Shown here: positions 16,194-41,861 of the stretch, one piece after another | How the letters are laid out: the number at the start of each line of letters is the position of its first letter | Numbering within the stretch: the first letter of the stretch is position 1 | Assembly (NCBI RefSeq): GCF_026013545.1 | Contig: NZ_JAPDOG010000007.1 | Span: 1-64,000, forward strand | DNA from: Defluviimonas salinarum | GTDB taxonomy: Bacteria; Pseudomonadota; Alphaproteobacteria; Rhodobacterales; Rhodobacteraceae | Reading direction: 5' to 3' | Length of the DNA: 64,000 nucleotides | Program-made: the position numbers and the translations under genes | Notes under the pieces: model-generated | The model's input: only the letters and a program-made list of their open reading frames with translations | What the model was told of the DNA's origin: nothing | The model's database searches: none

Positions 16194-16268
16194 GGCCCGT
16201 TCGTCTATCGGTTAGGACGTCAGGTTTTCAACCTGAAAAGAGGGGTTCGACTCCCCTACGGGCTGCCA
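16194..16268 (+). tRNA. tRNA-Glu (anticodon TTC)
   Basis: A full cloverleaf can be drawn: acceptor GGCCCGT pairing with ACGGGCT, anticodon stem TCAGG/CCTGA around the loop TTTTCAA (anticodon TTC), T arm GGGGTTCGACTCCCC, and an encoded CCA at 16266-16268. It lies 80 bases after recJ. A truncated integrase gene points at its 3' end 90 bases further on, so this tRNA is the probable attachment site of an integrated element. Confidence 0.97.
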
Positions 16269-16359: not shown

Positions 16360-17013
16360 CTAATTCTGTCCGCCTGTCATCTTGCGAAGGGCTGCTTGGG
16401 CGCAAACTTTCTGACTGGCGCCCTTGGTGTACCTCGTTACCTCCTTGGAAGTCTGGTGGCCGGTGATCGCCATGATCTCGAATTCCGTGCATCCCAACTC
16501 GGCCAGACGCTCGGCGGCGGCCTTTCGCAGCCCGTGAACGGAACACTCCGACAAGCCCGCCTCGTCGCACCACTTGCGGAAGCGATTGCCGAATCCGGCA
16601 TTCGTGAATGCCCTCCCGTAGCCGTTCACCAGGAACGTGAAGTCGCCTGCGCCGCTGGCGTCGATGATGTGTCGCAGCTCCGGGATGATCGGGATTTCCG
16701 GCCGGATCGGATTGCGGGCCTTTCCCTTCTGCTGCGTGAAGACCAGCCATTCGCCTTGAAAGTGCTGGCGGCCGAAAAGAACCAGGTCGGACCGGCGCTG
16801 CCCGGTATAGAGCGCCAGAGCGAGCGCCAGGCGCGCGGTCGTGCCCACCGGATGCGTGGTCTCGAATTTCTCGATCTCTGCCAGCGTCCACGAGTGGTAG
16901 CCCTCGGAACTGGACGTCAATAGCTCCACGTCCTTCGCCGGGTTCGTGTCCGCCAGATCGTAGGTGATGGCGAAGCGGAAAAGTTGGCGCAGCACCTTGG
17001 CATTGATGATGTG
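16360..17013 (-). pseudogene. 5'-truncated tyrosine recombinase (phage-type integrase)
   Basis: About 217 residues remain, covering the end of the core-binding region and the whole catalytic domain. The catalytic set is present: Arg in TGQRRSD, Lys in QQKGKAR, HGLR, TGHQ and the nucleophilic Tyr in RYTKG. The first 130-180 residues normal for such integrases are missing. The frame stays open to 17196 but that upstream part is merely the antisense of an ABC ATPase remnant, which fixes a junction near 17013. It faces tRNA-Glu. Activity without the arm/core-binding domain is unlikely. Confidence 0.75.
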
Positions 17014-17292
17014 ACCGCCCCCGACGGCATCCTGCGCCTCCTGACGACGTCGCGGCGGGATTTCGGGGTCGCCCATATGTTCATCAAGTACGATCTCGCG
17101 ACCGTCGAGGCGATCGCCGACGACGTCGTGGTCATGCAGCGCGGTCGGGTGGTCGATGCCGGGCCGAAACCGGCCGTTCTGCACCCGCCACGCCATGAGT
17201 ATACGCAGCTCCTGCTGTCCTCGGTTCCCGAGATGGATCCGCGATGGCTGGACAGGGTGCTGGGCGCACGCGAAACCGGATGCGGCCGATAA
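17014..17292 (+). pseudogene. Remnant of a peptide-type ABC transporter ATPase (C-terminal end)
   Basis: About 92 residues match the end of Dpp/Opp-type ATPases: the region after the D-loop, then IADDVVVMQRGRVVDAG and the family tail HPPRHEYTQLLLSSVP. The Walker A, Q-loop and signature parts are absent. The switch segment reads FIKYDL where FISHDL or FITHDL is expected, so the catalytic His is also lost. It is joined at its 5' end to the back-to-front integrase fragment. A transporter gene may once have preceded the mttB operon downstream. Confidence 0.7.
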
Positions 17293-17296
17293 TGAC

Positions 17297-17309
17297 TGAA
17301 ATCAGTTCA
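17297..17309. promoter_or_regulatory. Putative LysR-type operator (TGAA-N5-TTCA) before mttB
   Basis: TGAAATCAGTTCA is a TGAA-N5-TTCA palindrome of the kind bound by MetR-like LysR regulators. Its centre lies about 63 bases before the start point implied by the promoter at 17332-17359, the usual place of a LysR recognition site. A related half-type sequence (TGAAATTGAAC) follows at 17327. The same palindrome type occurs at 24662. Confidence 0.6.
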
Positions 17310-17331
17310 TCAAAAGACGTATATTATGAAA

Positions 17332-17359
17332 TTGAACTAATCCATCCTGCGCATAGACT
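17332..17359 (+). promoter_or_regulatory. Putative sigma-70 promoter of the mttB operon
   Basis: TTGAAC (17332-17337), 16 bases, TAGACT (17354-17359). It lies 32 bases before the mttB ATG, downstream of the LysR-type site, the usual layout of a LysR-activated promoter. Confidence 0.45.
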
Positions 17360-17390: not shown

Positions 17391-18884
17391 ATGCGGAGAG
17401 CCAGACAGAGCCGTGGAGAGGCGCAGTCCCAGGGTGGAGCGACTCGCCCGCCTCCCGGAGGGCGATTCCGGCCGCTTGACGACGGCAGCCTGCGCTCGAT
17501 CATCGAGGCGGCCTTCGACATCCTCGCCCGCATCGGCGTCGCCGCCGACGCGCCCGAGATGCGGAAGCTGGCCATTGCCGGCGGCGCGGTGGAGCGCCCC
17601 GACGGCCGGCTCACCTTCCCGCGCGCGCTGGTCGAAGACATGATCGCGAAGTCACGCAAGCGCGTCGAACTGCCGGGCTTCGATCCCCAGCGCGGGATCG
17701 AAGTGGGCGGAGGCCACGTTCACATCGGGACCGGCGGCGCCGCCGTGCAGGTACTCGATGCCGACACCGGCAATTTCCGCGACAGCACGCTGGCCGATCT
17801 CTACGGTCTCATGCGCATCGTCGACGCCTGCGACAGCATCCACTACGCGCTGCGCCCGGTGGTTGCGCGCGACATGGCCGACCCGCTGACGCTCGACCTC
17901 AACACCGCCTTCGCGGCAATGAAGGCGACCTCGAAACCGATCGGCACCAGCTTTTTCGAACCCGCGCATGTCGCCCCCGTGGTCGAGATGCTGGACGCGG
18001 CACTCGGGCCGACCCCTTTCGCCGCGCAGCCCTTCTGCTTCGCGTCCGTCTGCCATGTCGTGCCGCCGCTCACGCTCGCCACCGAGGCCTGCGGCGTGAT
18101 GCGGGAATGCGTGCGGCTCGGGATGCCGCTGCAGATCTGCTCTGCCGGGCAGGCCGGCGCCACGAGCCCCGCGTCGCTCGCGGGCGCGCTCGCGCAAGGC
18201 CTCGCGGAATCGCTCGCGGGCCTCGTCCTCGTCAACATGATGCAGCCGGGCTTTCCCTGCATCCTCGCCTTCATGCCCTTCATCTCGGACCTGCGCACCG
18301 GCGCGATGACCGGCGGTTCCGGCGAGGCGGCGGTCGCCAGCGCGGCGGCCGCCCAGCTACTTCTTCACCTCGGTCTGCCTTCGACGGTCTCGGCCGGCAT
18401 CACCGACGCCAAGGTCGCCGACGCGCAGGCCGGATACGAGAAGGGATATACCGTTGCACTGTCGGCCCAGGCCGGGGCCGACATGATCAACCTCAGCGTC
18501 GGCATGCTTGGCTCGATCATGGCGGCCAGCAAGGAGGCGCTGGTGATCGACAACGACATGTGCGGCGCGATCCTGCGCTCGGTGCGCGGGGTCGAGGCGT
18601 TCGAGGGCGCCATCGACCTCGACCTGATCGAGGAGGTCGTGACCGGGCCGGGGCATTACCTCGGCACCGACCAGACGCTAAGGCTCATGACGACCGAGTA
18701 CCTCTATCCCCGGCTCGGCGACCGGCAAAGCATCCCGAACTGGCTGACGAGCGGCGCGAAGACTGTCTGGGACCGCGCCCGCACCCGCGTTGCCGAGATC
18801 GAGGCGAGCCCCGCACCCGATCACCTGCCCGCCGACATCGAAGCCGCGATCCGCGCGCGTCTGCCCATCAAGCTGGAAGTCTGA
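17391..18884 (+). CDS. Trimethylamine methyltransferase family (MttB superfamily), non-pyrrolysine
   Basis: 497 residues of the COG5598 TIM-barrel methyltransferase family. Pyrrolysine-containing MttB demethylates trimethylamine; members without it act on quaternary amines such as glycine betaine, proline betaine, carnitine or gamma-butyrobetaine, handing the methyl to a corrinoid protein. No in-frame TAG interrupts this gene, so it is of the second kind. No corrinoid-protein gene is in the window. ATG 17391 is preferred over GTG 17385 because GGAGG is 7 bases upstream of it. Four bases separate it from the first DMGDH-like gene, so the three genes form a tight operon. Confidence 0.88.
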   Translation: MRRARQSRGEAQSQGGATRPPPGGRFRPLDDGSLRSIIEAAFDILARIGVAADAPEMRKLAIAGGAVERPDGRLTFPRALVEDMIAKSRKRVELPGFDPQRGIEVGGGHVHIGTGGAAVQVLDADTGNFRDSTLADLYGLMRIVDACDSIHYALRPVVARDMADPLTLDLNTAFAAMKATSKPIGTSFFEPAHVAPVVEMLDAALGPTPFAAQPFCFASVCHVVPPLTLATEACGVMRECVRLGMPLQICSAGQAGATSPASLAGALAQGLAESLAGLVLVNMMQPGFPCILAFMPFISDLRTGAMTGGSGEAAVASAAAAQLLLHLGLPSTVSAGITDAKVADAQAGYEKGYTVALSAQAGADMINLSVGMLGSIMAASKEALVIDNDMCGAILRSVRGVEAFEGAIDLDLIEEVVTGPGHYLGTDQTLRLMTTEYLYPRLGDRQSIPNWLTSGAKTVWDRARTRVAEIEASPAPDHLPADIEAAIRARLPIKLEV

Positions 18885-18888
18885 ATCG

Positions 18889-21303
18889 ATGAGAACCCAA
18901 GCCAAAGTCGTCGTCATCGGCGGGGGCGCCGTCGGCGTCTCGACACTCTATCACCTCGCCCGGGCCGGCGTGACTGACACGCTCCTGATCGAGAAAAGCG
19001 AGCTCACCTCGGGCTCCACCTGGCACGCTGCGGGGAATATCCCGACCTATGGGACAAGCTGGGGCGGGATGCGCGCGGGCAACTACGCATGGCGGCTCTA
19101 CAAGGATCTGGCCGGGGTCGTCGATTATCCGATCACCTACCGCCATACCGGGGCGTTCTGGCCGGCTCATACGCGGGACCGGATGGACTTCTTCCACCAC
19201 CTCGTCGGCATCTCGAGGGGGCTCGGCTACGACATGGCGATGATCTCGCCGGCCGAGATGGAGGCGATGCATCCCTGGTACCGGGCAGGCAGCAGCGTCA
19301 TCGGCGGCATCCTCGACCCCTATGAGGGCGATGTCGATCCGAGCCAGCTGACCCAGGCGCTGGCCAAGGGCGCGCGCGATCTCGGCGCCGAGATCGTGCG
19401 CTTCACCAAGGTCACCGGGATTAGCCGCAGGCCCTCCGGCGAATGGCAGGTCAGCACGGACAAGGGCGAGGTCCTCTGCGATGTCGTCGTCAACGCCTCG
19501 GGCTACTACGGGCGGCAGGTCGGCGAAATGGTCGGCCAGCGCCTGCCGGTGGTGACGCTCGAGCACCAGTACCTCGTGACCGAGGCATTGCCCGAACTGG
19601 AAGCGAACCCGGCCAACTTTCCGCTCGTCCGCGATCCCGACATCATGTTCTACCTGCGCCGCGAGCGGAACGGGCTTCTTTTGGGTTCCTATGGCCATGC
19701 CGGGCGACCCGCCTGGCTCGACGGGATGCCCGACGACTTCGCCAACCAGCTCTATCCCGACAGCGTCGACGACATCGCCGAGGTGCTGGAGGCGGCGCTC
19801 GAACACATACCGATCCTGGGCGAGGCGGGGGTCAGCCGTTTCGTGAACGGTCCGATCCCCTATTCGCCGGACGGCGCGCCGCTCTGCGGCCCGGCCTTCG
19901 GCCTGCCGAACTTCTACCATGCCTGCTGCTTCCCGGTCGGCATCACCCATTCGGCGGCGGCGGGAAAGACGCTCACCGAATGGATCACGGAAGGCGAGCC
20001 CGAATGGGACATGTCGGCCTGGGATCCGCGCCGCTTCGGAGATTGGGCGACCTTCGACTACACCGTCGCCCGCGCCTGCGAGCTTTACGAGCACCAGTAT
20101 GCGATCCCCTATCCGCACCGGATCTGGAAATCGGCGCGGCCGGTGAACCGCACGCCGCTTTACGACCGCTTGAAAGCAAAGGGCGCGGTCTTCGGTCAGA
20201 TCGCGGGATGGGAACGGGCTTTCTGGTTCGAGACCGAGACGGTGAAGGACGACGGATGCCTCAGCTTCCGTCACGAGGCCTGGCACGACGCCGTGAAGGC
20301 CGAATGCGAGGGCGTGCGCGACCATATCGGCGTGATGGATCACGGCGGCTTCACCCGCTACGAGGTGGAGGGGCCGGGCGCGACCGACTTCCTCGACCGG
20401 GTCTTCTGCGGCGCGATGCCGGCGGTCGGGCGCGTCAAGCTCAGCTACATGCTGACGCCGAAGGGCAAGGTCTGGTCCGAGGCCACGATCGCCCGGCTCG
20501 AAGAATACAGGTACCTGCTCTGCGGCCCGACGCTCGCCGATCAGCGCGACCACGACTGGATGGCGCGGTTCCTGCCGGAAAGCGGCGTGACGCTCCGGCG
20601 CGGATCGGACTTCGACGCGGCCCTGATGGTGATGGGGCCGAAGTCGCGCGACACTCTCCAGCCCCTGACCGACGCCGACCTGTCGAAGGAGGCTGCGCCC
20701 TGGATGTCGGTCCGCGAGATCACGCTGGCCGGCGCCCCTATGATCGCGCTCCGCGTCTCCTATGTCGGCGAGCTGGGGTGGGAGCTGCACATGCGCTCGG
20801 CCGATCTCGTGACCGTCTACGAGGCGATCATGCGGGAAGGCGCGGACAAGGGGATGGTGGAGTTCGGCTCCTACGCCCTGAATGCGATGCGGATCGAGAA
20901 GGGCTATCACGGCTGGGGCGCGGATTTCGGCATCGAGTACACGCCGTTCGACGCCGGGCTCGAACGGTTCGTCAGCCGTCGAAAGACCGATTTCGTCGGC
21001 CGCGACGCGTTCCTCGCCAGTGCCGACCGGCCGCGCGACTATCACTTCACGGCGTTCGAACTCGACGGCCAAGGCCCCGACGCGCTCTCCTCGGACCCGA
21101 TCCTGAAGGAGGGCCGGGTGGTCGGCTATGTCAGCTCCGCCGGCACCGGCTTCCGCATCGGCAAGCGTATCGCGCTCGGCTATCTGACGATACCCGCCGA
21201 TCCGGGCGACCGTTTGGAGATCGAGGTGCTCGGCGAGCCGGTGCAGGCAACCGTGCGCGCGTTGCCGTTCTACGACCCCGAAAACGCCCGGCTGAAAGGG
21301 TAG
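18889..21303 (+). CDS. FAD-dependent demethylating dehydrogenase with GcvT domain (DMGDH/sarcosine dehydrogenase-like), copy 1
   Basis: 804 residues. The N-terminal DAO-type flavin domain has the dinucleotide motif IGGGAVG (residues 10-16) and TSGSTWHAAG (about 42-51), in which the His is the covalent FAD attachment residue of dimethylglycine and sarcosine dehydrogenases. A middle FAO-type segment and a C-terminal GcvT/THF-binding region (from about 440; GELGWELHM near 625) follow. Such enzymes oxidise an N-methyl group and pass the carbon to tetrahydrofolate. Second gene of the mttB operon; a homologous gene follows 4 bases on. Confidence 0.9.
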   Translation: MRTQAKVVVIGGGAVGVSTLYHLARAGVTDTLLIEKSELTSGSTWHAAGNIPTYGTSWGGMRAGNYAWRLYKDLAGVVDYPITYRHTGAFWPAHTRDRMDFFHHLVGISRGLGYDMAMISPAEMEAMHPWYRAGSSVIGGILDPYEGDVDPSQLTQALAKGARDLGAEIVRFTKVTGISRRPSGEWQVSTDKGEVLCDVVVNASGYYGRQVGEMVGQRLPVVTLEHQYLVTEALPELEANPANFPLVRDPDIMFYLRRERNGLLLGSYGHAGRPAWLDGMPDDFANQLYPDSVDDIAEVLEAALEHIPILGEAGVSRFVNGPIPYSPDGAPLCGPAFGLPNFYHACCFPVGITHSAAAGKTLTEWITEGEPEWDMSAWDPRRFGDWATFDYTVARACELYEHQYAIPYPHRIWKSARPVNRTPLYDRLKAKGAVFGQIAGWERAFWFETETVKDDGCLSFRHEAWHDAVKAECEGVRDHIGVMDHGGFTRYEVEGPGATDFLDRVFCGAMPAVGRVKLSYMLTPKGKVWSEATIARLEEYRYLLCGPTLADQRDHDWMARFLPESGVTLRRGSDFDAALMVMGPKSRDTLQPLTDADLSKEAAPWMSVREITLAGAPMIALRVSYVGELGWELHMRSADLVTVYEAIMREGADKGMVEFGSYALNAMRIEKGYHGWGADFGIEYTPFDAGLERFVSRRKTDFVGRDAFLASADRPRDYHFTAFELDGQGPDALSSDPILKEGRVVGYVSSAGTGFRIGKRIALGYLTIPADPGDRLEIEVLGEPVQATVRALPFYDPENARLKG

Positions 21304-21307
21304 AGAG

Positions 21308-23719
21308 ATGGCCAGAGAGCTCCCCTCTGAGGTGCAGGTCGCCGTCATCGGCGGCGGCATCGTCGGCTGCGCGACCGCCTATCACCTCGCCAGGGCCGGC
21401 TGGTCGGTGGCGCTCTTCGAGCGCAAGAAACTCACCTCGGGCACGACGTGGCATGCCGCGGGCCTCGTCAGCGAGACGCAGGGCGTGCCGGTCATGTCCG
21501 CGCTCGCGCGCTACGGGCTCGACCTGATGGAGCGGCTCGAGGAGGAGACCGGCCAACCAACCGGGTTCAGGCGGAACGGGTCGATCACGCTCGCGCTGAC
21601 CGAGGCGCGGATCGAGGAACTGCGCCGCAAGGTCGATTACGCCCATGGCTGCGGCATCCGCGCCGAGGAGATCGCCGCCACCGAGGCGAAAGACCGCTGG
21701 CCGCTCCTGTCCACGCATGGCGCCAGGGGTGCGTTCTGGTTTCCCGGCGACGGCTACACGAACCCGATCGATACGACCATGGCGCTCGCCAAGGGCGCGC
21801 GACTACACGGGGCGCAGATCTTCGAGGACAATAGGGTCGAGCGGATCGTGACCGAGAAGGGCCGCGTCGCCGGGGTTGAGACCTCGGCGGGCTTCGTGCG
21901 CGCCGCCCATGTGGTCAACGCGACGGGCATGTGGGCGCGGGAGTTTGGCCTCAGCCACGGCACCCCGATCCCGCTGCACTACACCAACCACTATTACGTC
22001 GTGACCGACCCGATCGACGGCGTGACCGGCGATCTGCCGGTGCTCAGGGTCATGGACGAATACACCTACTACAAGGAGGACGCGGGCAAGCTCCTGATCG
22101 GCTGTTCGGAGCCCAATGCCACTCCCTGGCAGCCGGCGGGTGGCCTGCCGGAGCATTTCGAGTTTGACGAACTGCCCTGCAACGAGGAGCATCTATTCCC
22201 GATCCTCGAAGCCGCCGCCGAGCGCATCCCCGCGCTCGCGAGCACCGGCATCCGCAAGTTCTTCAACGGGCCGGAAAGCTTCACGCCGGACGGGAAATAC
22301 TATCTCGGGCCTATGACCGAGGTGCCAGGGCTCTGGGTCGCGGCGGGCTTCAACTCCACCGGCATCCAGAATGGTCCCGGCGCGGGCAAGGCGCTTGCGG
22401 AATGGATCATGGCGGGCCGGATGACGATGGACCTGACGGATGTCGACGCGCGGCGGATCCATCCGCGCCTGAACGCGCCCGGGCTCGTCGCGGCCAAGGC
22501 CGCCGAGACGCTGTCGCTCGCCTACGCGATGCACTGGCCCTATCACCGGCGCGAGGCGGCGCGGGGCCTGCGCCGAACACCCTATTACGCCCAGTTGAAG
22601 GCCGCAGGCGCGGAGTTCGCACCCGCCAATGGCTGGGAGCGGCCGCTGATCTATGGGGCCGAGATCACCGACGGTTTCGATCGCCAGCCCTGGTTCGACG
22701 CCTGGAAGGCCGAGCACGAAGCCCTGCGCGGCGGTATCGGGATGATCGACCTCACCTTCGGACGCTTCCTCGTCGACGGTCCGGCGGCAGAAGCCGAGAT
22801 GCAGCGGCTCTGCGGGGCGAACATGGAGGTCACGCCGGGGACGCTCGTCTACACCCACATGTTCAACGAGGCGGGCGGCATCGAGGCCGACGTGACGGTG
22901 GCCCGACTCGGCGACCGCCGCTTCCTGATCATGGCCTCGGCCGGCGCGGAGCCGCAGGTCGAGCGCTGGCTGACGACGCGGCTCGGGGATGGCGGGACGA
23001 GCGTCGTCAATGTCACCGCGTCCGAAGCGACGCTGGCCGTGATGGGGCCGCGGGCGCGGGACTTCCTGTCGCGGCTTACCGATGCCGATCTCTCAGACGC
23101 GGCATTCCCGTTCGGCACCTTCCGGGAGATCTTCGTCGGCAACGCCCCGGTCCGCGCCCAGCGCATCACCTATGTCGGCGAGCTTGGCTGGGAACTGCAC
23201 ATCCCGTCGGACTTCGCCCAGCATGTCTATGAGACCGTGATGGCAGAGGAACTCCCACCGCAGCTCTGCGGCGGCATGGCGGTCGACAGCTGCCGGATCG
23301 AAAAGGGCTTTCGCCACTGGGGCCACGACATCGGCCCCCACGACACGCCTGTCGAGGCGGGCCTGACCTTCGCCTGCGACTTCGAGACAGACTTCACGGG
23401 CAAGGCGGCGATCCTCGCCCGCCGAGCCGAGGGCGCGAAGTCCCGGCTCCTGTCCTTCCGCCTCGCCGATCCCGAAATGCTCCTCTTCGGCAAGGAGCCC
23501 GTGCTCCGCGACGGGCAGATCGTCGGGCGCCTGACCTCGGCGAGCTATGGCTGGACGGTCGGCGGCGCCATAGGGATGGGCTATGTCGCGCTGCCTGAAG
23601 GCGGTGTCGGGGCCGCTGACGGGGCAGATTACACGATCATGGTCGCCGGCCGCCCGGTAAAGGCGACCGCCAACCTGCGGCCGCTCTACGATCCGGGCAA
23701 TGCCCGCATGAAGGGGTGA
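21308..23719 (+). CDS. FAD-dependent demethylating dehydrogenase with GcvT domain (DMGDH/sarcosine dehydrogenase-like), copy 2
   Basis: 803 residues with the same architecture as the preceding gene: IGGGIVG at about residues 14-20, TSGTTWHAAG at about 47-56 (covalent flavin His), FAO-type middle part and GcvT C-terminal region (GELGWELHIPS near 620). The two copies are clearly diverged paralogues, which suggests two successive demethylations or different substrates. Copy 2 is closer to dimethylglycine and sarcosine dehydrogenases in the active-site stretch LTSGTTWHAAGL. It ends the left operon, convergent with and 3 bases from the LysR gene. Confidence 0.9.
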   Translation: MARELPSEVQVAVIGGGIVGCATAYHLARAGWSVALFERKKLTSGTTWHAAGLVSETQGVPVMSALARYGLDLMERLEEETGQPTGFRRNGSITLALTEARIEELRRKVDYAHGCGIRAEEIAATEAKDRWPLLSTHGARGAFWFPGDGYTNPIDTTMALAKGARLHGAQIFEDNRVERIVTEKGRVAGVETSAGFVRAAHVVNATGMWAREFGLSHGTPIPLHYTNHYYVVTDPIDGVTGDLPVLRVMDEYTYYKEDAGKLLIGCSEPNATPWQPAGGLPEHFEFDELPCNEEHLFPILEAAAERIPALASTGIRKFFNGPESFTPDGKYYLGPMTEVPGLWVAAGFNSTGIQNGPGAGKALAEWIMAGRMTMDLTDVDARRIHPRLNAPGLVAAKAAETLSLAYAMHWPYHRREAARGLRRTPYYAQLKAAGAEFAPANGWERPLIYGAEITDGFDRQPWFDAWKAEHEALRGGIGMIDLTFGRFLVDGPAAEAEMQRLCGANMEVTPGTLVYTHMFNEAGGIEADVTVARLGDRRFLIMASAGAEPQVERWLTTRLGDGGTSVVNVTASEATLAVMGPRARDFLSRLTDADLSDAAFPFGTFREIFVGNAPVRAQRITYVGELGWELHIPSDFAQHVYETVMAEELPPQLCGGMAVDSCRIEKGFRHWGHDIGPHDTPVEAGLTFACDFETDFTGKAAILARRAEGAKSRLLSFRLADPEMLLFGKEPVLRDGQIVGRLTSASYGWTVGGAIGMGYVALPEGGVGAADGADYTIMVAGRPVKATANLRPLYDPGNARMKG

Positions 23720-23722
23720 CGG

Positions 23723-24649
23723 TCAGGTGACGTGAAGGCCGCATCCCGGCCGCGCGCACCACTCGGCCATGTGATCGGCGACGATCCGGATCGGGTCGTC
23801 CGGGTCGGCGTCTTCGCTGCGCAATGCGGCGGACCAGGGAATGGTGATGCCCTCTTGGGTGACCTGGACGCCAATGATCCGTCCCTCCTTGAGCGCGGTC
23901 TGAAGTGCCCAGCCCGCCAGCACGCTGGTCCCGAGATTGGACGCCACAAGCTCCACGATCGCCTCCGGAAGCTCTACCGTTGCCGTCCATTTCGGATAGG
24001 TCTCGGTCGGGCGGAACAGGCGGGCGAACTCTCGGTCGGGCTCTGGAACCTTGGTATAGGTGATGAAGGGTTCGTCGACGATGTCCGTCCCCTCGACGTA
24101 ATCCCGCCCGGCCAGCCGGTGCCCTGGTGCCATGATGAAGAGGAGCGGATCCTCGAAGAGATGCACCGCGGTGACGCCCGCCTGTGCCGGAACGCCCGAG
24201 ACCACGGCGATGTCGATGTTGCGGTTCATCAGCCCGGTGAGCGGGTTGAGGTTGCCGCCGGCCATGATCTGAAGATCGATGCCGGTCGTGTGCGACTTGA
24301 GGTACTTCAGGAATGCGGGAAGCCAGCGATAGTTCGAATAGGCCTCGACCGACAACCGCACGACATGATGGATGCCCGCGTTCATGCGCCGCACGTCCTC
24401 CTCGGCCCGCGTCAGGTCGGAGAGGATCCGGTCGGCGACGACCGACATGTACTCCGCCGCCGGCGTCTTGCGCAGGCGCTTGTGCATCCGGGTGAAAAGC
24501 TGCACGTCGAGCCGCCGTTCCGCCTCCCGCAGCCGATGCGAGAGCGCCGAGGGCGTAACCCCGAGCTTCTCGGCCGCATCGGTGATGCGCCCGGTTTCGA
24601 TGACCGCCTGGATCAGTTGCAGGTGGCGCAGGTCGAGATAGGGTTTCAT
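23723..24649 (-). CDS. LysR family transcriptional regulator (MetR-like)
   Basis: 308 residues. The winged helix-turn-helix occupies about residues 6-65 (LRHLQLIQAVIETGRITDAA, then LGVTPSALSHRLREAER), followed by the periplasmic-binding-like effector domain. The opening LDLRHLQLIQAV and the T-P-S-A-L-S-H pattern resemble MetR. It is encoded between two operons, divergent from the aminotransferase operon and convergent with the demethylase operon. The TGAA-N5-TTCA palindromes at 24662 and 17297 would let it control both, and itself. Its inducer is unknown. Confidence 0.9.
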   Translation of the reverse strand: MKPYLDLRHLQLIQAVIETGRITDAAEKLGVTPSALSHRLREAERRLDVQLFTRMHKRLRKTPAAEYMSVVADRILSDLTRAEEDVRRMNAGIHHVVRLSVEAYSNYRWLPAFLKYLKSHTTGIDLQIMAGGNLNPLTGLMNRNIDIAVVSGVPAQAGVTAVHLFEDPLLFIMAPGHRLAGRDYVEGTDIVDEPFITYTKVPEPDREFARLFRPTETYPKWTATVELPEAIVELVASNLGTSVLAGWALQTALKEGRIIGVQVTQEGITIPWSAALRSEDADPDDPIRIVADHMAEWCARPGCGLHVT

Positions 24650-24661
24650 GGCAGCCTTGGA

Positions 24662-24674
24662 TGAATCAATTTCA
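24662..24674. promoter_or_regulatory. Putative LysR-type operator (TGAA-N5-TTCA) in the divergent promoter
   Basis: TGAATCAATTTCA starts 13 bases in front of the LysR start codon and lies about 57 bases upstream of the start point implied by TAGAAT at 24713-24718, a -10-like box for the rightward operon. No good -35 box accompanies it, as expected for an activator-dependent promoter. It matches the arrangement upstream of mttB. Confidence 0.6.
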
Positions 24675-24754
24675 CGAAAGCGAGAAAACTTCTAGATTGC
24701 CGTTCAGTCAAATAGAATGTGATCTCCTACGGTATTCCTCGTCCGGAGACCGCC

Positions 24755-26131
24755 ATGAACGTCGACGCGAAACGCAGCATCGAGCAGGACATCGCCCATC
24801 ACGTGCATCCGCAGACCAACCTGCGCCAGCATGCCGAGAAGGGCCCGACCATAATCACGCACGGCAAGGGCGTGTTCATCTACGACAGCGAGGGACGCGA
24901 GATCATCGACGGGTTCTCCGGCCTCGGCTGCGTGAGTCTCGGCTATCACAACGAGCGGCTCGCCGAGGCGGCGATGCGGCAGATGAACACGCTGCCCTTC
25001 GCGCCGACCTTCTACAACCGCTCGCATCCCCGCGTGGCCGAACTTGGCGAACGATTGATCGGCATGGCGCCGGGCGGCATGAACCGGGTGATGTTCCAGT
25101 GCTCCGGCTCGGAGGCGAACGACACCGCGATCAAGCTGATCTGGTACGCCAACACCGCCAGGGGCGAGCCGCAGCGGCGCAAGATCATCGGCCGCATCCG
25201 CGGCTATCACGGCAATACGATCGCGACCGTGTCGCTGTCGGGCCAGCCGCACATGCATGCGAAGTTCGGCCTTCCCTTGCCGGAGTTCAAGCACACCGAA
25301 TTGCCGAACTACTACCGCTTCCATATCGACGGCGAGAGCGAGGAGGAGTTTTCGGCCCGGATGGCGCGAAGCTTCGAGGAACTGATCCTGCGCGAGGGAC
25401 CGGACACCGTCGCGGCCTTCTTCGCCGAACCCGCGATCTCCGGCGGCGGCGCGCTGATGCCGCCGAAGGGTTACTGGGAGGAGATGCAGGCAGTCATCCG
25501 CAAATACGGCATCACCTTCCTCGTCGACGAGGTCGTCTGCGGCTTCGGCCGGACCGGCAACATGTGGGGGGCCGAGACCTGGGGCCTCAAGCCCGACATG
25601 GTGAGCTGCGCCAAGGCCTTGTCGGCGGCGTTCTTCCCGATCTCGGCCCTGATGTTCAAGGACGAGCTCTATGCCGAGATGATGCGCAACTCCGACGAGG
25701 TCGGCCTCTTCGGGCACGGCTACACCTATGCCGGCCATCCGGTCGGCGCGGCGGTGTCGCTCCAGGCGCTCGACATCTACGACGAGATCGACCTGATCGG
25801 CCATGTCCGGAAGGTGTCGAAGCGTTTCCTCGAACGGTGCGACGCCATGCAGGACCACCCGCTGGTGGCCGAGGTGCGCGGCGTGGGGCTGTTCTGCGGC
25901 TTCGAACTAATGAGGGACGCCAAGGTGCGGATCCCCTTCGACCCGGCCTGGAAGGTCGGTGCATTGGTGCAGGACTTCGCGCATGATCGGGGGCTCTATC
26001 TTCGCGCGATCGGCGACCGGATAAGCTTCATGCCGCCCCTGATCATCAACGAGGAGGAAATCGACCTCGCGACCGAGCGCTTCAAGGGGGCGCTGGACGA
26101 CGCCTGGGCGGTGGTGAAGAACAAGATCTGA
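24755..26131 (+). CDS. Class III PLP aminotransferase (omega-amino acid type)
   Basis: 458 residues. Class III transaminases move the amino group of omega-amines or omega-amino acids to a keto acid, yielding an aldehyde. Motifs: SGSEANDTAIKL (phosphate-binding loop, about 118-129), FLVDEVVCGFGRTG (PLP-binding Asp, about 255-268) and SCAKALS containing the Schiff-base Lys near residue 286. GGAGA precedes the ATG at 24755. First gene of the five-gene right operon; the next gene is an aldehyde dehydrogenase 12 bases away, a classic pair for degrading a primary amine. Confidence 0.9.
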   Translation: MNVDAKRSIEQDIAHHVHPQTNLRQHAEKGPTIITHGKGVFIYDSEGREIIDGFSGLGCVSLGYHNERLAEAAMRQMNTLPFAPTFYNRSHPRVAELGERLIGMAPGGMNRVMFQCSGSEANDTAIKLIWYANTARGEPQRRKIIGRIRGYHGNTIATVSLSGQPHMHAKFGLPLPEFKHTELPNYYRFHIDGESEEEFSARMARSFEELILREGPDTVAAFFAEPAISGGGALMPPKGYWEEMQAVIRKYGITFLVDEVVCGFGRTGNMWGAETWGLKPDMVSCAKALSAAFFPISALMFKDELYAEMMRNSDEVGLFGHGYTYAGHPVGAAVSLQALDIYDEIDLIGHVRKVSKRFLERCDAMQDHPLVAEVRGVGLFCGFELMRDAKVRIPFDPAWKVGALVQDFAHDRGLYLRAIGDRISFMPPLIINEEEIDLATERFKGALDDAWAVVKNKI

Positions 26132-26143
26132 AGGGAGTACGAC

Positions 26144-27634
26144 ATGGCCGAGTTGCTGGAGCCGAAACTGCCGCAGGCGGGGCTTGCCGGATGCTATATC
26201 GACGGCAAATGGCATTGGCCCGCGGACGGGCGGAAGCTGACGGTCGAGAATCCCTCGCGCCGGACGCCCATCTGCGAGGTCGGGCGCGGCGCGAAGGCCG
26301 AGATCGATCTCGCCGTCGCCGCCGCCCGCGCCGCACTTCCGGCTTGGCGCGCGCTCGCGGCCTCCGAGCGGGGCAAGCGCCTTGCGGAACTCGGTCGCCG
26401 GCTCGAGGAGAGCGCCGAGGAGGTCGCCCGCGTCCTCGCCGCCGAATCCGGCAATGCGATCAAGACCCAGTCCCGCGGCGAGGCGATGGGGGCGGCGGGC
26501 GTGCTGAAATATTACGGTGGTGTCGCGGTCGAACAGAAGGGCGAGACGCTGCCGCTCGGCCCCGGTCTTTTCAGCTATTCGACGCGCGAACCGCATGGCG
26601 TGGTCGGGTCGATCATCCCCTGGAACTCGCCCTTGCAACTTGGCGCGGTCAAGATCTCCATGGCGCTCGCCACCGGCAACTGCCTGGTGCTGAAGCCCGC
26701 CGAGGATGCGCCGCTCGCGATCCTGAAGCTCGCCGAGCTTGCCGACGGCCTGTTCCCGCCCGGCGTCTTCAACGTCGTGACGGGGCTTGGCGAAGAGGCA
26801 GGCGCGGCACTTGCCGCGCATCCCGGCGTGGACAAGATCTCCTTTACCGGTTCGTCCGAGGTGGGCCGGCTCATCGGACGCGCGACCGCCGAACGCATCG
26901 CCAAGCTCACGCTGGAACTCGGGGGCAAGTCGCCGACCATCGTGTTCCCCGACGCGATCGAGAACGGAAGGCTCGACACCACCGCGCAACAGGTCGCGAA
27001 CGCGATGCGCTTCGCGCGGCAGGGGCAGAGCTGCACCGCCGGCTCGCGGCTCTTCGTACACAAGGACATCTGGGACGTGCTGATGCCCAGGGTGGCGGAG
27101 AAGGCGGCAGCCCTCAAGGTCGGCGACGCGCTCGACCCCGACGTCGACATGGGCGCGGTCATCAACGCGGAACGCTATGGCGAGATCCGCAACTTCGTGG
27201 CCGAGGCCGAAGCGGAAGGCGCGGACTTCCTGATCGGGGAAACCCCGGCCGAGAACCCGGCGGGCTTCCTGCCCGGCCCCACGATCATCACCGGCGTCGA
27301 CAACAGCTGGCGCATCGTCCGGGAGGAGGTGTTCGGCCCGGTCATGGTCGCGATCCCGTTCGAGACCGAGGCCGAGGCGATCGCCATGGCCAACGACACC
27401 CATTACGGGCTCGCCGCCTTCATCTTCACCCATGACATCAGCCGGATCACCCGGCTCACCCGCGCCATCGACGCGGGCTGGATCCAGGTCAATCAGGGCG
27501 GCGGGCAGATCCCGGGCATGTCTTACGGCGGCACAAAGCAGTCGGGCACCGGCAGCGAATACTCGATCGAGGGCGCGCTCGAGGCCTATACCTACCGCAA
27601 ATGCGTCACCATCAACGTGGAGCAGGCCGGATGA
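26144..27634 (+). CDS. NAD(P)-dependent aldehyde dehydrogenase
   Basis: 496 residues, normal for the superfamily. Catalytic residues are visible: Glu in LELGGKSPTIVF (about 262-273) and Cys in GQSCTAGSR (about 293-301). IIPWNSPLQ is the coenzyme/substrate segment near residues 164-172. It should oxidise the aldehyde made by the class III aminotransferase encoded directly upstream to a carboxylate. Its stop codon overlaps the start of the next gene (ATGA), so the two are translationally coupled. The physiological aldehyde is not known. Confidence 0.92.
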   Translation: MAELLEPKLPQAGLAGCYIDGKWHWPADGRKLTVENPSRRTPICEVGRGAKAEIDLAVAAARAALPAWRALAASERGKRLAELGRRLEESAEEVARVLAAESGNAIKTQSRGEAMGAAGVLKYYGGVAVEQKGETLPLGPGLFSYSTREPHGVVGSIIPWNSPLQLGAVKISMALATGNCLVLKPAEDAPLAILKLAELADGLFPPGVFNVVTGLGEEAGAALAAHPGVDKISFTGSSEVGRLIGRATAERIAKLTLELGGKSPTIVFPDAIENGRLDTTAQQVANAMRFARQGQSCTAGSRLFVHKDIWDVLMPRVAEKAAALKVGDALDPDVDMGAVINAERYGEIRNFVAEAEAEGADFLIGETPAENPAGFLPGPTIITGVDNSWRIVREEVFGPVMVAIPFETEAEAIAMANDTHYGLAAFIFTHDISRITRLTRAIDAGWIQVNQGGGQIPGMSYGGTKQSGTGSEYSIEGALEAYTYRKCVTINVEQAG

Positions 27635-28896
27635 CCTCGGACCGCTTCGGCAACGAAGTCGATCCCGGCGTCGGCTACGCGCGGGGGCGGCTTCTGGCCT
27701 CTTCGACCGACGAGGTCCGCCGCCTCCGCCGCGCCGGCCAGATCGCGGCGGAATTCGCCGCGCGAGAGGGGATGGAGAAGGTGGCGATCTGCACCGGCAA
27801 CCTGCGCTTCTTCCCGGCAACGGCGGCCGATCTGACGGAACTCTGCGAAGAATGGATCGGCCCCGGCCTTTACGGCGAAGACCTCAGACAGGCGGCGATT
27901 TCCCACATGGGCGGCGACGGCTCCGAGGCGGTCGCCGTCGTCAACCGCACCAGCGCCGGGATCGTTGCCGCGATCCTCGCGCTGTCCGGCGGTCGGCCAG
28001 TCTTGTCCCTTGTGCCCGGAGGCGACCGCTCACACGCCTCGGTGTCGCGCGGGGCAAGACTGGCCGGCGTGCCGGTCGTCGAGATGCATGATCTGCCGGA
28101 GCTGAAGCGCATGCTCGCGGCTCACCTGCCGAAGCTGCTGATTGTCACCACGGTCACATCTGAACTCGCCGTGCTGCCGGACGAGCTGACCGCGGTTGCG
28201 GTCAAGACCGCGCGGGCGGCGGGCTGCAAGGTGTTCCTCGACGAAGCCTACGGCGCGCGCTTTCGCCCGGTGATCCACGGCGGCGCGCCGTCGCTGTCGT
28301 TCGGGGCGGATCTCGTCGTCACCAACTCCGACAAGGCCGGGCTGACCGGCCCGCGCGCCGGCGTGCTCTGCGGCGTCGCGGATACTCTGGTGCCGGTCAT
28401 CGCGAGAGCGAGCGAACTTGGTATGGAGGCGCGCGCGCCGATCGCTGTCGGCGCGATGCGCAGCCTTCAAGGCTTCACCCCTGAGATGCTGCTCGAAGAG
28501 GCGCGCGACGGTCTCGACCTGTCGGAGGCGTTGGAAGCGGCCCTCGGGGGCGGCATCATCCTCCGCTCGGCCCTCGGCCCGAAGATCGACGAGCAGGATC
28601 TGTTCGCGCGGGTGCTGGAGCTTGCGGGTGCCGAGAGGTCGGCGCGCGTGCCGGCCGAAGTCGCCGCCGCTGTAGGGATGCTGATGCTGCGCGACAGAGG
28701 GATCGTGACCGTCAACACCCATGGCCAACCCGGCGGACGTGTCTCGATCCGGCTGAAGCCCACGACCGGTGCCGTGGCGCGTGCGGGCGGGGCAGCGGCG
28801 GTCGCAGGGTGCCTGGCCGGGGCGATGGACGCGGTGGCGGCGCATCTCGAGGACGAGGCCTGGTTCTCGGCGCTCCTGTTCGGAGAGGGGAAATGA
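27631..28896 (+). CDS. SelA-like PLP-dependent enzyme
   Basis: 421 residues of the aspartate-aminotransferase fold, closest in pattern to the SelA / D-glucosaminate-6-phosphate lyase (DgaE) group: GDGSEAVAVVNRTSAGI near residues 93-109, FLDEAYGARF and VTNSDKAGLTGPRAG with the probable Schiff-base Lys. It is not a selenocysteine synthase by context: no selB or selC is nearby. SelA-like enzymes outside selenium metabolism act as lyases or transferases on amino or amino-sugar acids. It is coupled by ATGA overlaps to the genes on both sides. Confidence 0.75.
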   Translation: MTSDRFGNEVDPGVGYARGRLLASSTDEVRRLRRAGQIAAEFAAREGMEKVAICTGNLRFFPATAADLTELCEEWIGPGLYGEDLRQAAISHMGGDGSEAVAVVNRTSAGIVAAILALSGGRPVLSLVPGGDRSHASVSRGARLAGVPVVEMHDLPELKRMLAAHLPKLLIVTTVTSELAVLPDELTAVAVKTARAAGCKVFLDEAYGARFRPVIHGGAPSLSFGADLVVTNSDKAGLTGPRAGVLCGVADTLVPVIARASELGMEARAPIAVGAMRSLQGFTPEMLLEEARDGLDLSEALEAALGGGIILRSALGPKIDEQDLFARVLELAGAERSARVPAEVAAAVGMLMLRDRGIVTVNTHGQPGGRVSIRLKPTTGAVARAGGAAAVAGCLAGAMDAVAAHLEDEAWFSALLFGEGK

Positions 28897-29906
28897 GCGA
28901 CCGGCAGCTGATCGCACGGCTCGACGACCGGCTGGACCGGCTCGTCAACATCGACATCGGCGAGCGCGGGGTGGAGCCGCTGTTCGCCGCCGCCCGTGAC
29001 CTTCAGGGCGGCTCGCTCGTCGGGGCGGCTGCCGACGCACTCATGGCAGTGCCGATGAGCGGGACCGTGGTGATCACCACCGGCTCCGTTTCCCGCGCCT
29101 GGATCACTCCGGAACTGGGCGAGAACGACGGCCCGTCTGGCGCGGCGGCGATCGCCCGCGCGCTGGTCCTCGAACGCAACGCGGCCTGCATCGTCCTCTG
29201 CGAGGAAACTCTCATCCCGGCGATCCGCGCGGTCATGGTCGCGGCGGGTCTCTTCCCAGTCGGCCTCGATCAGGCGCGGATCGCGCAAAAGGACCGGAGC
29301 CTCGCCACCGTCGTGATGATGCCCTACCCCACGTCCGACGAGGACGGAAGAGCCGCCGCACCCGCGATGCTCGACGCGCTCGCGCCGGACCTTCTCTTTT
29401 CGACCGAGCGCGTCGGGCGCAACGACAGGGGCGTCTACCACTCGATGCGCGGCATCGACTACGGGATGGGCCGGGCGCGGGTCGATTTCCTCTTCGACAA
29501 AGCCATGGCGAGGGGCATCCCCGTCGTGGCGGTCGGCGATGGCGGCAACGAGATCGGCATGGGCAAGGTCGCGGAACACGTCCGGGCGCATGTGCCCTAC
29601 GGCGACAACTGCCAGTGCGGCTGCGGCGGCGGCATCGGCGCGACGACCGGCTGCGGCGTCCTCGTGACGGCGGCCTGCTCGAACTGGGGTTGCACCGCGA
29701 TCGCGGCCGCGATGGCCGCCCGTGGCGGCAATCCCAGACTCGTCCACACGCCCGACGCCGAAGCGCGCCTGCTCGACGCGATGGTGGCGGCCGGCCTTAT
29801 CAACTCCACCCATGGCATCGTCGACGATGCCGTCGACGGATTCCCCCGCGCCAGCCATCTCAGCGTGGCGACGCTTTGCCAGACGATCGTATCGCGCGCC
29901 CTGTGA
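28893..29906 (+). CDS. DUF4392 / D-glutamate cyclase-like protein
   Basis: 337 residues matching the DUF4392 (glutamate cyclase-like C-terminal) family, whose studied members convert D-glutamate to 5-oxo-D-proline. Segments: GGSLVGAAADALMAVP, SGTVVITTGS, VAVGDGGNEIGMGKV (about 214-228) and SNWGC near residue 265. A C-x-C-x-C cluster at residues 240-244, with further Cys at about 254 and 268, could bind a metal. Start overlaps the previous stop. Its neighbours suggest that it handles an amino-acid intermediate rather than glutamate pool control, but that is inference. Confidence 0.75.
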   Translation: MSDRQLIARLDDRLDRLVNIDIGERGVEPLFAAARDLQGGSLVGAAADALMAVPMSGTVVITTGSVSRAWITPELGENDGPSGAAAIARALVLERNAACIVLCEETLIPAIRAVMVAAGLFPVGLDQARIAQKDRSLATVVMMPYPTSDEDGRAAAPAMLDALAPDLLFSTERVGRNDRGVYHSMRGIDYGMGRARVDFLFDKAMARGIPVVAVGDGGNEIGMGKVAEHVRAHVPYGDNCQCGCGGGIGATTGCGVLVTAACSNWGCTAIAAAMAARGGNPRLVHTPDAEARLLDAMVAAGLINSTHGIVDDAVDGFPRASHLSVATLCQTIVSRAL

Positions 29907-29935
29907 GCCCAAGCATTCCCAGACGAGAAAGTCCC

Positions 29936-31201
29936 ATGACCGACATCACCCCAGAGCTTCTCGAGAAGATCCGCAGCCGCTTCCATCATGTCGAGGAATG
30001 CCCCTATCAGGGCCCCCGCATCTTCTTCGAGAACGCCGGCGGCGCGCTGACGCTGAAATCCGTCGTCGAGACCTCGGCAAAGTTCGCCGCGATCCCGGAC
30101 AACCAGGGGCGCGACAACCCGGCGAGCCACGCGCTCGTCGAGGTGATCAACCGTGCCAAGGCAGACATGGCCGTTCTGATGAACGCCTCGTCGGGGCAGT
30201 TCTTCGTCGGCGAAAGCGGGACCGAGCTTTTGTTCCGAATGATCCGCACCGCCTGCGTCAACGCGCCGAAAGGGGCAAAGGTGCTCGGCAGTTCGCTCGA
30301 ACATCCGGCCTCGCGTTCTGCGGCGCGGCGTTGGGCGGCCATAGCCGAACTCGATTACGTCAACGTCAGGCATGACGACGCAATCGGCACCGTTACGGCC
30401 GAAGCATACGCTGCGCATGTGACGCCGGACGTTGCGGTGGCGACGATCCTGCATACCTCGCCCGTGACCGGAATGGGCGTCGACGTGGCCGCCGTGTCTG
30501 CGGCGATCCGCAAGGTCGCGCCCGACTGCCTGATCATCGTCGACGGCATCCAGCATGCCGCCCACGGCCAACTCGACATCGACAGCTACGGCGTCGATGG
30601 CTACGCAATTTCGCCCTACAAGGTCTTCTCGCGCCACGGCTACGGCGTCGCCTGGATCTCGGACCGGCTCTCGCTCCTGCCGCACGACATGCTGATCGAC
30701 GCCCCGGCCAAGGGCTGGGAGTTCGGCACGCGCGACACCGGCGCCTACGCGACCACGTCGGACCTCGTCGCCTATTTCGACTGGCTCGGTGGCGAGGTGT
30801 CACAAGAGACGGATCGGCGCCGCCGGATCGAGGCCGCGGGCCACGCGATCCACGCCCATGAGAAGCGGCTCACGGACGCGATGATCCACGGGCTGGGCAA
30901 CGTGAAGGGCCTCAAGGAGATGGCAAATGTCACCATCATCGGCGGCGCGGACAACCCGGCGCGTGAGGGGCTGGTGTCGATCGTCGTGAAGGACATGCCC
31001 TCACCTGACGTCGTGGCCCGGCTGAATGAGCAGGGTATCCGGACACACACCCGAAAGGCAGACCACTACTCGCGCAACATTCTCGATCCCCTTGGGCTCC
31101 CGGACTGCATCCGCGTGTCTATCTGCCATTACAACAGCGAGCGCGAAGTTGCTCAGTTTCTGGCAGCGCTTGAGGGGATTGTTTGTGGCGCGGATGCCTG
31201 A
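29936..31201 (+). CDS. Class V PLP-dependent enzyme (cysteine desulfurase / isopenicillin-N epimerase-like)
   Basis: 421 residues. It has the class V pattern: ENAGGALTL near residues 28-36, IVDGIQHAAHG (PLP-binding Asp and His) near 200-210 and the Schiff-base Lys in AISPYKVFSRHGYG near 224-237. There is no desulfurase active-site Cys loop that I can recognise, so desulfurase activity is unlikely; an epimerase, lyase or aminotransferase role fits better. Last gene of the right operon, 29 bases after the DUF4392 gene; a 600-base gene-free stretch follows. Confidence 0.78.
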   Translation: MTDITPELLEKIRSRFHHVEECPYQGPRIFFENAGGALTLKSVVETSAKFAAIPDNQGRDNPASHALVEVINRAKADMAVLMNASSGQFFVGESGTELLFRMIRTACVNAPKGAKVLGSSLEHPASRSAARRWAAIAELDYVNVRHDDAIGTVTAEAYAAHVTPDVAVATILHTSPVTGMGVDVAAVSAAIRKVAPDCLIIVDGIQHAAHGQLDIDSYGVDGYAISPYKVFSRHGYGVAWISDRLSLLPHDMLIDAPAKGWEFGTRDTGAYATTSDLVAYFDWLGGEVSQETDRRRRIEAAGHAIHAHEKRLTDAMIHGLGNVKGLKEMANVTIIGGADNPAREGLVSIVVKDMPSPDVVARLNEQGIRTHTRKADHYSRNILDPLGLPDCIRVSICHYNSEREVAQFLAALEGIVCGADA

Positions 31202-41762: not shown

Positions 41763-41861
41763 GCCCTGTCCTCCCATGCCCGTCCCGGACAGCATCGGCA
41801 GGCGGCGACCACACTTCGCCGCGCTCTGCGACAGGACTGCGTCGTTTTTAGGACAAGCCGC

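Follow-up and report, generated by a model that had tools for sequence, protein, structure and literature searches.

In this study, a nine-gene cluster was examined in a stretch of 64,000 nt from Defluviimonas salinarum (contig NZ_JAPDOG010000007.1, positions 1-64,000; whole genome 5.02 Mb), which is termed the window throughout, and its gene content, conservation, co-occurrence, shared regulatory site and exchange of front-end genes were established by computation. All nine open reading frames are open between 17391 and 31201, and they form two operons with a LysR regulator gene between them. We observed that the catabolic unit they constitute is real and co-regulated, rare, and patchy in its distribution, and it is probably a single regulon that serves growth on an amino acid of the trimethylammonium (betaine) type. 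The genes and the two copies of their operator are as follows, where DMGDH stands for dimethylglycine dehydrogenase and PLP for pyridoxal phosphate.

17297..17334, forward strand: operator copy 1, before mttB (site search).
17391..18884, forward strand: mttB, non-pyrrolysine MttB-family methyltransferase (PF06253; clade in the mttB tree).
18889..21303, forward strand: dmgdh1, DMGDH/GcvT fusion (domain architecture, solved relatives).
21308..23719, forward strand: dmgdh2, DMGDH/GcvT fusion (domain architecture, solved relatives).
23723..24649, reverse strand: LysR regulator gene, between the two operons (family match; kept in 9/9 long related loci).
24662..24699, forward strand: operator copy 2, between lysR and at3 (site search).
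24755..26131, forward strand: at3, class III aminotransferase (AT3) of the PRK06105 subfamily (profile match, solved relatives).
26144..27634, forward strand: aldh, aldehyde dehydrogenase (ALDH), core (Aldedh; 61-65% to rhizobial and Paraburkholderia copies).
27631..28896, forward strand: selA, SelA-like (MJ0158-type) PLP enzyme, core (profile match, 2aeu homology, PLP lysine).
28893..29906, forward strand: duf4392, DUF4392 / D-glutamate-cyclase-like metalloprotein, core (PF14336; E59 and D157 conserved).
29936..31201, forward strand: classV, Fgm3/UstD-like class V PLP enzyme (Aminotran_5; Fgm3 alignment).

The genes are tightly packed within each operon. In the first, gaps of 4 bp separate mttB from dmgdh1 and dmgdh1 from dmgdh2, and in the second, at3 and aldh lie 12 bp apart and duf4392 and classV 29 bp apart, with 4-bp ATGA overlaps at the aldh-selA and selA-duf4392 junctions. 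An earlier note on this DNA had described such spacings of 4-29 bp and ATGA overlaps, which can be read directly in the coordinates, and the family names that it gave to the nine genes are correct by profile matches. The median pN/pS ranged from 0.12 to 0.29 for all nine genes, calculated from 12-13 orthologues each, with synonymous sites near saturation and the measure accordingly rough. The association of the nine genes is more than chance, as they are constrained and kept together across genera.

A scan of named genomes with the DUF4392 protein disclosed 10 loci at 77-81% identity, in Pelagimonas metagenome-assembled genomes (MAGs), Paenihalocynthiibacter styelae, Ruegeria, Pararhodobacter oceanensis, Roseovarius albus and a Rhodobacteraceae MAG. 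The lysR, at3, aldh, selA, duf4392, classV, dmgdh1 and dmgdh2 genes were all present in 9/9 of the long related loci (dmgdh1 being cut by the locus end in six of the nine), and the tenth locus is a 3.1-kb contig carrying a partial aldh together with selA and duf4392. An mttB orthologue (77-80%) was detected in nine of the ten genomes with related loci. The mttB operon lies downstream on the opposite strand in three Ruegeria loci, and upstream on the opposite strand on two nearly alike plasmids (of Alisedimentitalea scapharcae and of M382), which indicates that the genes stay together despite the changed arrangement. The earlier note had expected the two operons to be conserved together, and this is what the relatives display.

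The cluster is patchy, since among 61 relatives the DUF4392 gene was noticed only in the strain's own genome. Across 394 family genomes, the SelA-like gene was found in 11 (leaving out three marginal matches, E 3e-4 to 6e-4) and mttB in 11 (E<=1e-150), with 10 genomes common to both (hypergeometric p 5e-18, treating genomes as independent). The loci of these ten were examined except that of G1029, and one family genome, G1036, has match coordinates identical to those on the M382 plasmid (Rhodobacteraceae bacterium M382, CP081100). The exceptions to the co-occurrence are G895, whose match sits on a 3.1-kb contig, and G914, in which mttB (61%) and dmgdh1 (63%) lie near PdxJ-like and arylmalonate-decarboxylase-like genes (L122, 6793-12772). 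When the phylum was searched with the SelA-like gene, 398 genomes yielded the strain's own and one marginal match, and a search of the family of G102 gave two marginal matches among 75 genomes. DUF4392 genes of other Alphaproteobacteria are distant: matches were found in 11/385 genomes, the own one included, and the others reach <=39% identity. These were dropped as relatives of the cluster after six such genomes displayed varied neighbours and no SelA-like match at E 1e-8.

With reference to regulation, the lysR/at3 intergenic and mttB upstream regions of 14 clusters, the window included, were aligned and revealed a bipartite site of 38 bp, TGA-N6-TTCANNAAA-N16-ATTG. A looser form of its left half occurs in 14/14 of the intergenic and 11/14 of the mttB upstream regions, and the left half is found twice in the window, at 17297 and 24662, against an expected 0.01. 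The full operator has exactly two copies in the 5.02-Mb genome at 0-1 mismatches, one before each operon, and the reversed pattern, used as a control, matched once. It recurs in relatives with rearranged operons; a third exact copy precedes the transporter operon on two marine plasmids, and R. arenilitoris harbors a copy with 2 mismatches at the same place. The nine genes are thus one regulon, and its obvious regulator, which would bind the shared operator, is the LysR protein encoded between the operons.

These data also bear on an alternative in which two separate pathways answer to one regulator, the mttB operon taking methyls from one compound and the at3-to-classV operon degrading another of the same source. 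The operons move independently, G914 possesses mttB and dmgdh1 without the core, and the rhizobial-type core described below stands without demethylases, as two pathways would allow. Nevertheless, the SelA-like gene and mttB co-occur in 10 of 11 genomes and the operator is placed at these two positions only in the genome, and we regard this alternative as improbable.

Judged from their families, mttB and the two DMGDH-like genes most likely serve to demethylate a quaternary amine, as the earlier note had suggested. The mttB product matches MTTB PF06253 with 346 bits against a curated cut-off of 25, and its solved relatives are trimethylamine and glycine betaine methyltransferases. It carries an isoleucine where trimethylamine methyltransferase 7xcl has its modified residue (X) and the gene has no in-frame stop, in agreement with its earlier description as non-pyrrolysine. 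Both DMGDH-like proteins exhibit the DAO+FAO_M+GCV_T+GCV_T_C architecture, with dimethylglycine dehydrogenase (the best) and dimethylglycine oxidase as solved relatives. In a tree of 50 rows, 20 mttB orthologues (some identical), grouped by identity >=60%, formed one clade with support 100/100, and the tree tool warned of long branches meeting elsewhere in the tree. The own genome contains 16 PF06253 matches, one being a 56-residue fragment, and between 7 and 19 matches to MttB occur in each of the ten related genomes. A single B12-binding_2 protein was detected in the genome, a stand-alone corrinoid protein of 261 aa (B12-binding_2 and B12-binding) encoded outside the cluster with DUF1638 adjoining and a homocysteine S-methyltransferase gene about 2.7 kb away. 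The first half of the unit is a new variant of known betaine demethylation.

Two further sets of related genes were noticed in the same strain. A second MttB gene, of the main MttB type, lies in the window outside the regulon (40212-41795, reverse strand; 719 bits to PF06253). Contig C8 contains a paralogous cluster (L136, 2452-11328) with dmgdh1-like (43%), dmgdh2-like (47%) and mttB-like (44%) genes, continuing with ALDH-like (36%) and then 3-hydroxyisobutyrate-dehydrogenase-like (HIBADH-like; 30%) genes, which looks like a second use of the demethylation cassette, for a different betaine.

The region directly upstream of mttB is truncated in the window and displays the following features, of which the earlier note, right about the nine genes, overlooked the integrase remnant and transporter tail at 16360-17290.

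16194..16268, forward strand: tRNA-Glu (TTC), found by ARAGORN; probable former integration site.
16360..17196, reverse strand: tyrosine-integrase remnant (PF00589).
17008..17271, forward strand: C-terminal 88 codons of an oligopeptide-type ABC transporter ATPase (homology to relatives' ATPases; oligo_HPY).

A complete transporter operon (SBP_bac_5, two permeases and a double ATPase) stands directly before mttB in five of the nine combined loci, and likewise on 2/2 Rhodobacteraceae plasmids; in G1037 it comes after duf4392. The ATPase remnant of the window is 57-63% identical to the ATPases preceding mttB in five relatives, and abuts the integrase remnant on the opposite strand, next to tRNA-Glu. 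The first ~50 codons of the integrase remnant overlap the transporter tail and are without homology, as matches start at residue 51-68 (10 of 24 records). Four other binding proteins (42-52% identity) are encoded in the genome, one of them on a contig with two MttB genes, and uptake in this strain may proceed via such a related system. The idea of a whole island with att repeats was rejected: the 3' end of tRNA-Glu has no second copy in the window at <=3 mismatches and the G+C content is near that of the surroundings. The upstream truncating event is the only supported part of that idea.

Concerning the second operon, the at3 product belongs to Aminotran_3 and exceeds the PRK06105 subfamily cut-off (615.6 vs 517). 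Its nearest solved relatives are class III aminotransferases, the best of which we take to be omega-transaminases, a name borne only by the lower rows of matches. The SelA-like protein is TIGR03576/MJ0158-like with 168 bits, below the TIGR03576 cut-off of 304, and is homologous to MJ0158 (2aeu, E 2e-31). Its PLP lysine K235 is invariant in 10/10 aligned sequences, and its AlphaFold model (10 sequences) was poor, with mean pLDDT 56.4 and pTM 0.43. The DUF4392 protein matches GLUCM-like_C PF14336 with 222 bits and keeps E59 and D157, both essential in TON_0340, these two acidic residues having been compared individually. A CxCxC stretch (CQCGC or CKCGC) is present in 10/10 marine and 0/7 rhizobial or Paraburkholderia aligned DUF4392 sequences, and is a possible extra metal site.

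The class V protein belongs to Aminotran_5, and its best solved match is Fgm3 (68 bits, E 5e-18, residues 9-416, lysine aligned), a PLP enzyme of Fusarium described as a Cbeta-Cgamma lyase of 4-hydroxyarginine (PMC10967133). No NCBIfam desulfurase model reached its cut-off, and no cysteine was noticed in the C-terminal loop as aligned with Fgm3, where a desulfurase would be expected to have its catalytic cysteine. We consider the protein a candidate retro-aldol C-C lyase. Four loci of class V paralogues were opened, two adjoining a DMGDH-like gene and two an ArgE/DapE-like gene. Paralogues next to a DMGDH-like gene (70-71%) lie on a Leisingera plasmid (L088), with a racemase and a TRAP transporter alongside, and on a Ruegeria plasmid (L089), with sarcosine-oxidase and MttB genes close by. 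Another paralogue (70%), with a third DMGDH-like gene (37% to dmgdh1), adjoins the cluster itself in an uncultured Ruegeria (L034, 958-4646).

Again, the SelA-like gene was matched in 18 plasmid records, namely two marine, 8 Bradyrhizobium, 6 Sinorhizobium, Caballeronia sp. NK8 and Paraburkholderia caffeinilytica, and a window-type DUF4392 match stood beside it in 18/18 (several being near-identical strains). Four of the 16 non-marine records were opened and display the order LysR, NAD(P)-dependent oxidoreductase, ALDH, second DUF4392, SelA-like, DUF4392, with an amino-acid ABC transporter near all four and an intervening MFS gene in P. caffeinilytica. The oxidoreductase is of the HIBADH type in three of the four, and identities to the window are 61-65% for ALDH, 52-53% for the SelA-like protein and 56-58% for DUF4392; no MttB, DMGDH or AT3 was found in the four stretches at E 1e-5. 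In S. fredii CCBAU 25509 (L083, 14962-16257), the SelA-like stretch is annotated as two small hypothetical genes, and tblastn spans it unbroken.

Front-end variants were also observed within the marine group. G1005 harbors a TRAP transporter, a HIBADH-type gene before the ALDH gene, the core, a DUF1445 gene adjoining DUF4392, classV, both DMGDHs and mttB; no at3 was found in its 34-kb stretch, to which the search for at3 was confined. G1154 has at3, dmgdh1, mttB, a HIBADH-type gene and the core with classV, and G1100 is of the main type. HIBADH-type genes also occur in G977 (a short contig) and in G1037, whose copy of the cluster is decaying (L123, L124), with at3 and lysR fragmented, dmgdh2 mostly missing and the HIBADH-type gene before ALDH.

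The part of the unit conserved most widely, and its heart, consists of the ALDH, SelA-like and DUF4392 genes, and classV is more loosely bound than the other back-end genes. The earlier note had treated the last three genes as an addition without a place in a described route, a view that applies at most to classV. We read AT3 and the HIBADH-type enzyme as two ways, from an amine or from an alcohol, to the same kind of aldehyde, feeding one ALDH and core; the presence of both in G1154 is a warning against this reading. The chances appear evenly balanced that ALDH, SelA-like and DUF4392 proteins form an undescribed amino-acid degradation module common to marine Rhodobacteraceae, soybean rhizobia and Burkholderiaceae, fed by betaine demethylation in the first and by an amino-acid importer and alcohol dehydrogenase in the others. 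In the opened portions of the papers listed by literature searches, no description of the nine-gene cluster or of this module was found, and a search pairing DUF4392 with trimethylamine methyltransferase returned nothing.

From these observations we infer a pathway in every one of its reactions, in the order of its steps and in its class of substrate. An oligopeptide-type ABC transporter, truncated in the window, would import the betaine amino acid in many relatives. The MttB-like enzyme would pass one N-methyl to the single stand-alone MtgC-like corrinoid protein and then to tetrahydrofolate, and the two DMGDH-like flavoproteins would oxidise off the remaining two as methylene-tetrahydrofolate. 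One end of the molecule would become an aldehyde, an amine end through the class III aminotransferase and an alcohol end through the HIBADH-type enzyme, and ALDH would turn this aldehyde into a carboxylate. The resulting amino-dicarboxylic acid, which the SelA-like PLP enzyme together with DUF4392, and also the class V PLP enzyme, would then degrade, is probably glutamate-like, a guess made because mammalian D-glutamate cyclase consists of two halves, DUF4392 and the DUF1445 that adjoins it in G1005.

Which nitrogen carries the methyls can be read in two ways. The trimethylammonium may sit at the omega end and be stripped to a primary amine, which AT3 and ALDH would convert to a carboxylate before the last three enzymes degrade the alpha-amino acid, as in N6-trimethyllysine to lysine to 2-aminoadipate. 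This would suit the adjacency of the AT3 and ALDH genes in 9/9 long loci and the class III aminotransferases nearest to AT3, and trimethyllysine would give an amino-dicarboxylate for the PLP enzymes. The earlier note had likewise taken the demethylated nitrogen to be the one removed by the aminotransferase, which the makeup of G1005, with mttB and both DMGDHs and no at3 in 34 kb, argues against. In the rhizobial-type module this core goes with a gene of the alcohol-dehydrogenase type and demethylases are absent, and class V paralogues adjoin a DMGDH-like gene without AT3 on two other plasmids; we therefore find such a linear route unlikely.

The exchange of front ends, with demethylases and core kept, makes us lean slightly to the alpha nitrogen. 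As a form of the regulon proposed here, it is tentatively conceivable that the trimethylammonium is the alpha-amino group of a hydroxy- or diamino-acid betaine, for instance ornithine betaine, lysine betaine or trimethylhomoserine, the last being the head group of the betaine lipid DGTS. Demethylation would then free the alpha-amine for the PLP enzymes, and AT3 or the HIBADH-type enzyme with ALDH would act on the side chain. The plain amino-acid importer of the rhizobial-type clusters accords with this, as do the nearest solved MttB and DMGDH relatives, which include glycine betaine and dimethylglycine enzymes acting on the alpha-nitrogen. On the other side, homoserine would end as aspartate and need no special core, and R. 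leguminosarum handles homoserine by a different gene set, a class III diaminobutyrate aminotransferase being linked there with homoserine (PMC10228743). For homoserine-type substrates, that link is an analogy only. Additionally, glycine betaine, gamma-butyrobetaine, 5-aminovalerate betaine, carnitine and homarine were rejected as complete explanations, as their pathways leave the core unused, and a literature listing brought up no paper on a homarine pathway; gamma-butyrobetaine and 5-aminovalerate betaine, two of the earlier note's examples, would idle the back-end enzymes.

Several observations weigh against a single regulon with this pathway. The reactions of all cluster genes are assigned by family alone; mttB falls below the TIGR02369 equivalog cut-off for trimethylamine methyltransferase proper (305 vs 525 bits), the corrinoid protein is encoded elsewhere in the genome and none in the cluster, and the transporter was not found in the examined stretch of four of the nine loci. 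The gene set varies: the G1154 stretch lacks dmgdh2, no classV was found in the G1100 (32 kb) and G1037 stretches, and G914 carries mttB and dmgdh1 without the core. At <=2 mismatches, the operator is absent from the stretches of G1005, G977 and G914 and before mttB of G1154, and single extra copies occur elsewhere in L034/L076 and L125. No HIBADH-type gene was detected in the nine main loci or the two marine plasmids at E 1e-20, and its coexistence with AT3 in G1154 suggests that the two may do different steps and not replace each other. Moreover, TON_0340, a solved DUF4392 homologue, is reported as a weak Mn-dependent phosphatase and not a cyclase (PMC5132392).

Among the nearest known systems is MtgBCD of R. 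pomeroyi DSS-3, described for glycine betaine demethylation, with up to seven PF06253 ORFs noted and further substrates suggested (PMC12478193). The two systems have in common a PF06253 protein, a single shared corrinoid protein that stands alone with DUF1638 in its vicinity, and marine aerobic Rhodobacteraceae as hosts; the corrinoid protein of the present strain, with DUF1638 and a homocysteine S-methyltransferase close by, resembles MtgC, and MtgBCD passes its methyl to tetrahydrofolate, as proposed for the window regulon (PMC12478193). What sets the unit apart from MtgBCD is a LysR regulon of its own, together with two DMGDHs, a transporter of the oligopeptide type and back-end genes for a larger amino acid. 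The MttB relatives of Eubacterium (MtpB, MtcB, MtyB and others) are likewise non-pyrrolysine, specialised paralogues on one corrinoid protein (PMC12478193), but they belong to anaerobes, and no DMGDH or core link was seen for them, sequences not being compared. For MttB in these marine bacteria, glycine betaine is the one substrate assigned by that work, the remaining copies being left open (PMC12478193). The regulon described here is sharply delimited and has a transporter and a predicted site for its regulator, so that growth and induction tests can reveal its substrate.

Mammalian D-glutamate cyclase (DUF1445+DUF4392) converts D-glutamate to 5-oxo-D-proline (PMC5339696) and has the DUF4392 family in common with the cluster. 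In the window, DUF4392 stands alone beside the SelA-like gene, with no DUF1445 among the nine cluster proteins, and a DUF1445 neighbour was found in G1005. The cluster offers a bacterial context in which DUF4392, a family that the mammalian enzyme belongs to, can be tested, and the module reading, if true, would give a first physiological role for bacterial DUF4392 and MJ0158-type proteins. Fgm3 is the best solved match of the class V protein, but its similarity is low (68 bits) and its context is biosynthetic and in other organisms. Lastly, the rhizobial and Burkholderiaceae plasmid cluster (ALDH-DUF4392-SelA-like-DUF4392) carries the SelA-like and DUF4392 genes in the same order as the window; it differs in its second DUF4392 and in having a HIBADH-type gene and an amino-acid ABC transporter in place of mttB, the DMGDHs and AT3, and this comparison connects a marine betaine route to a trait that soybean rhizobia carry on plasmids.

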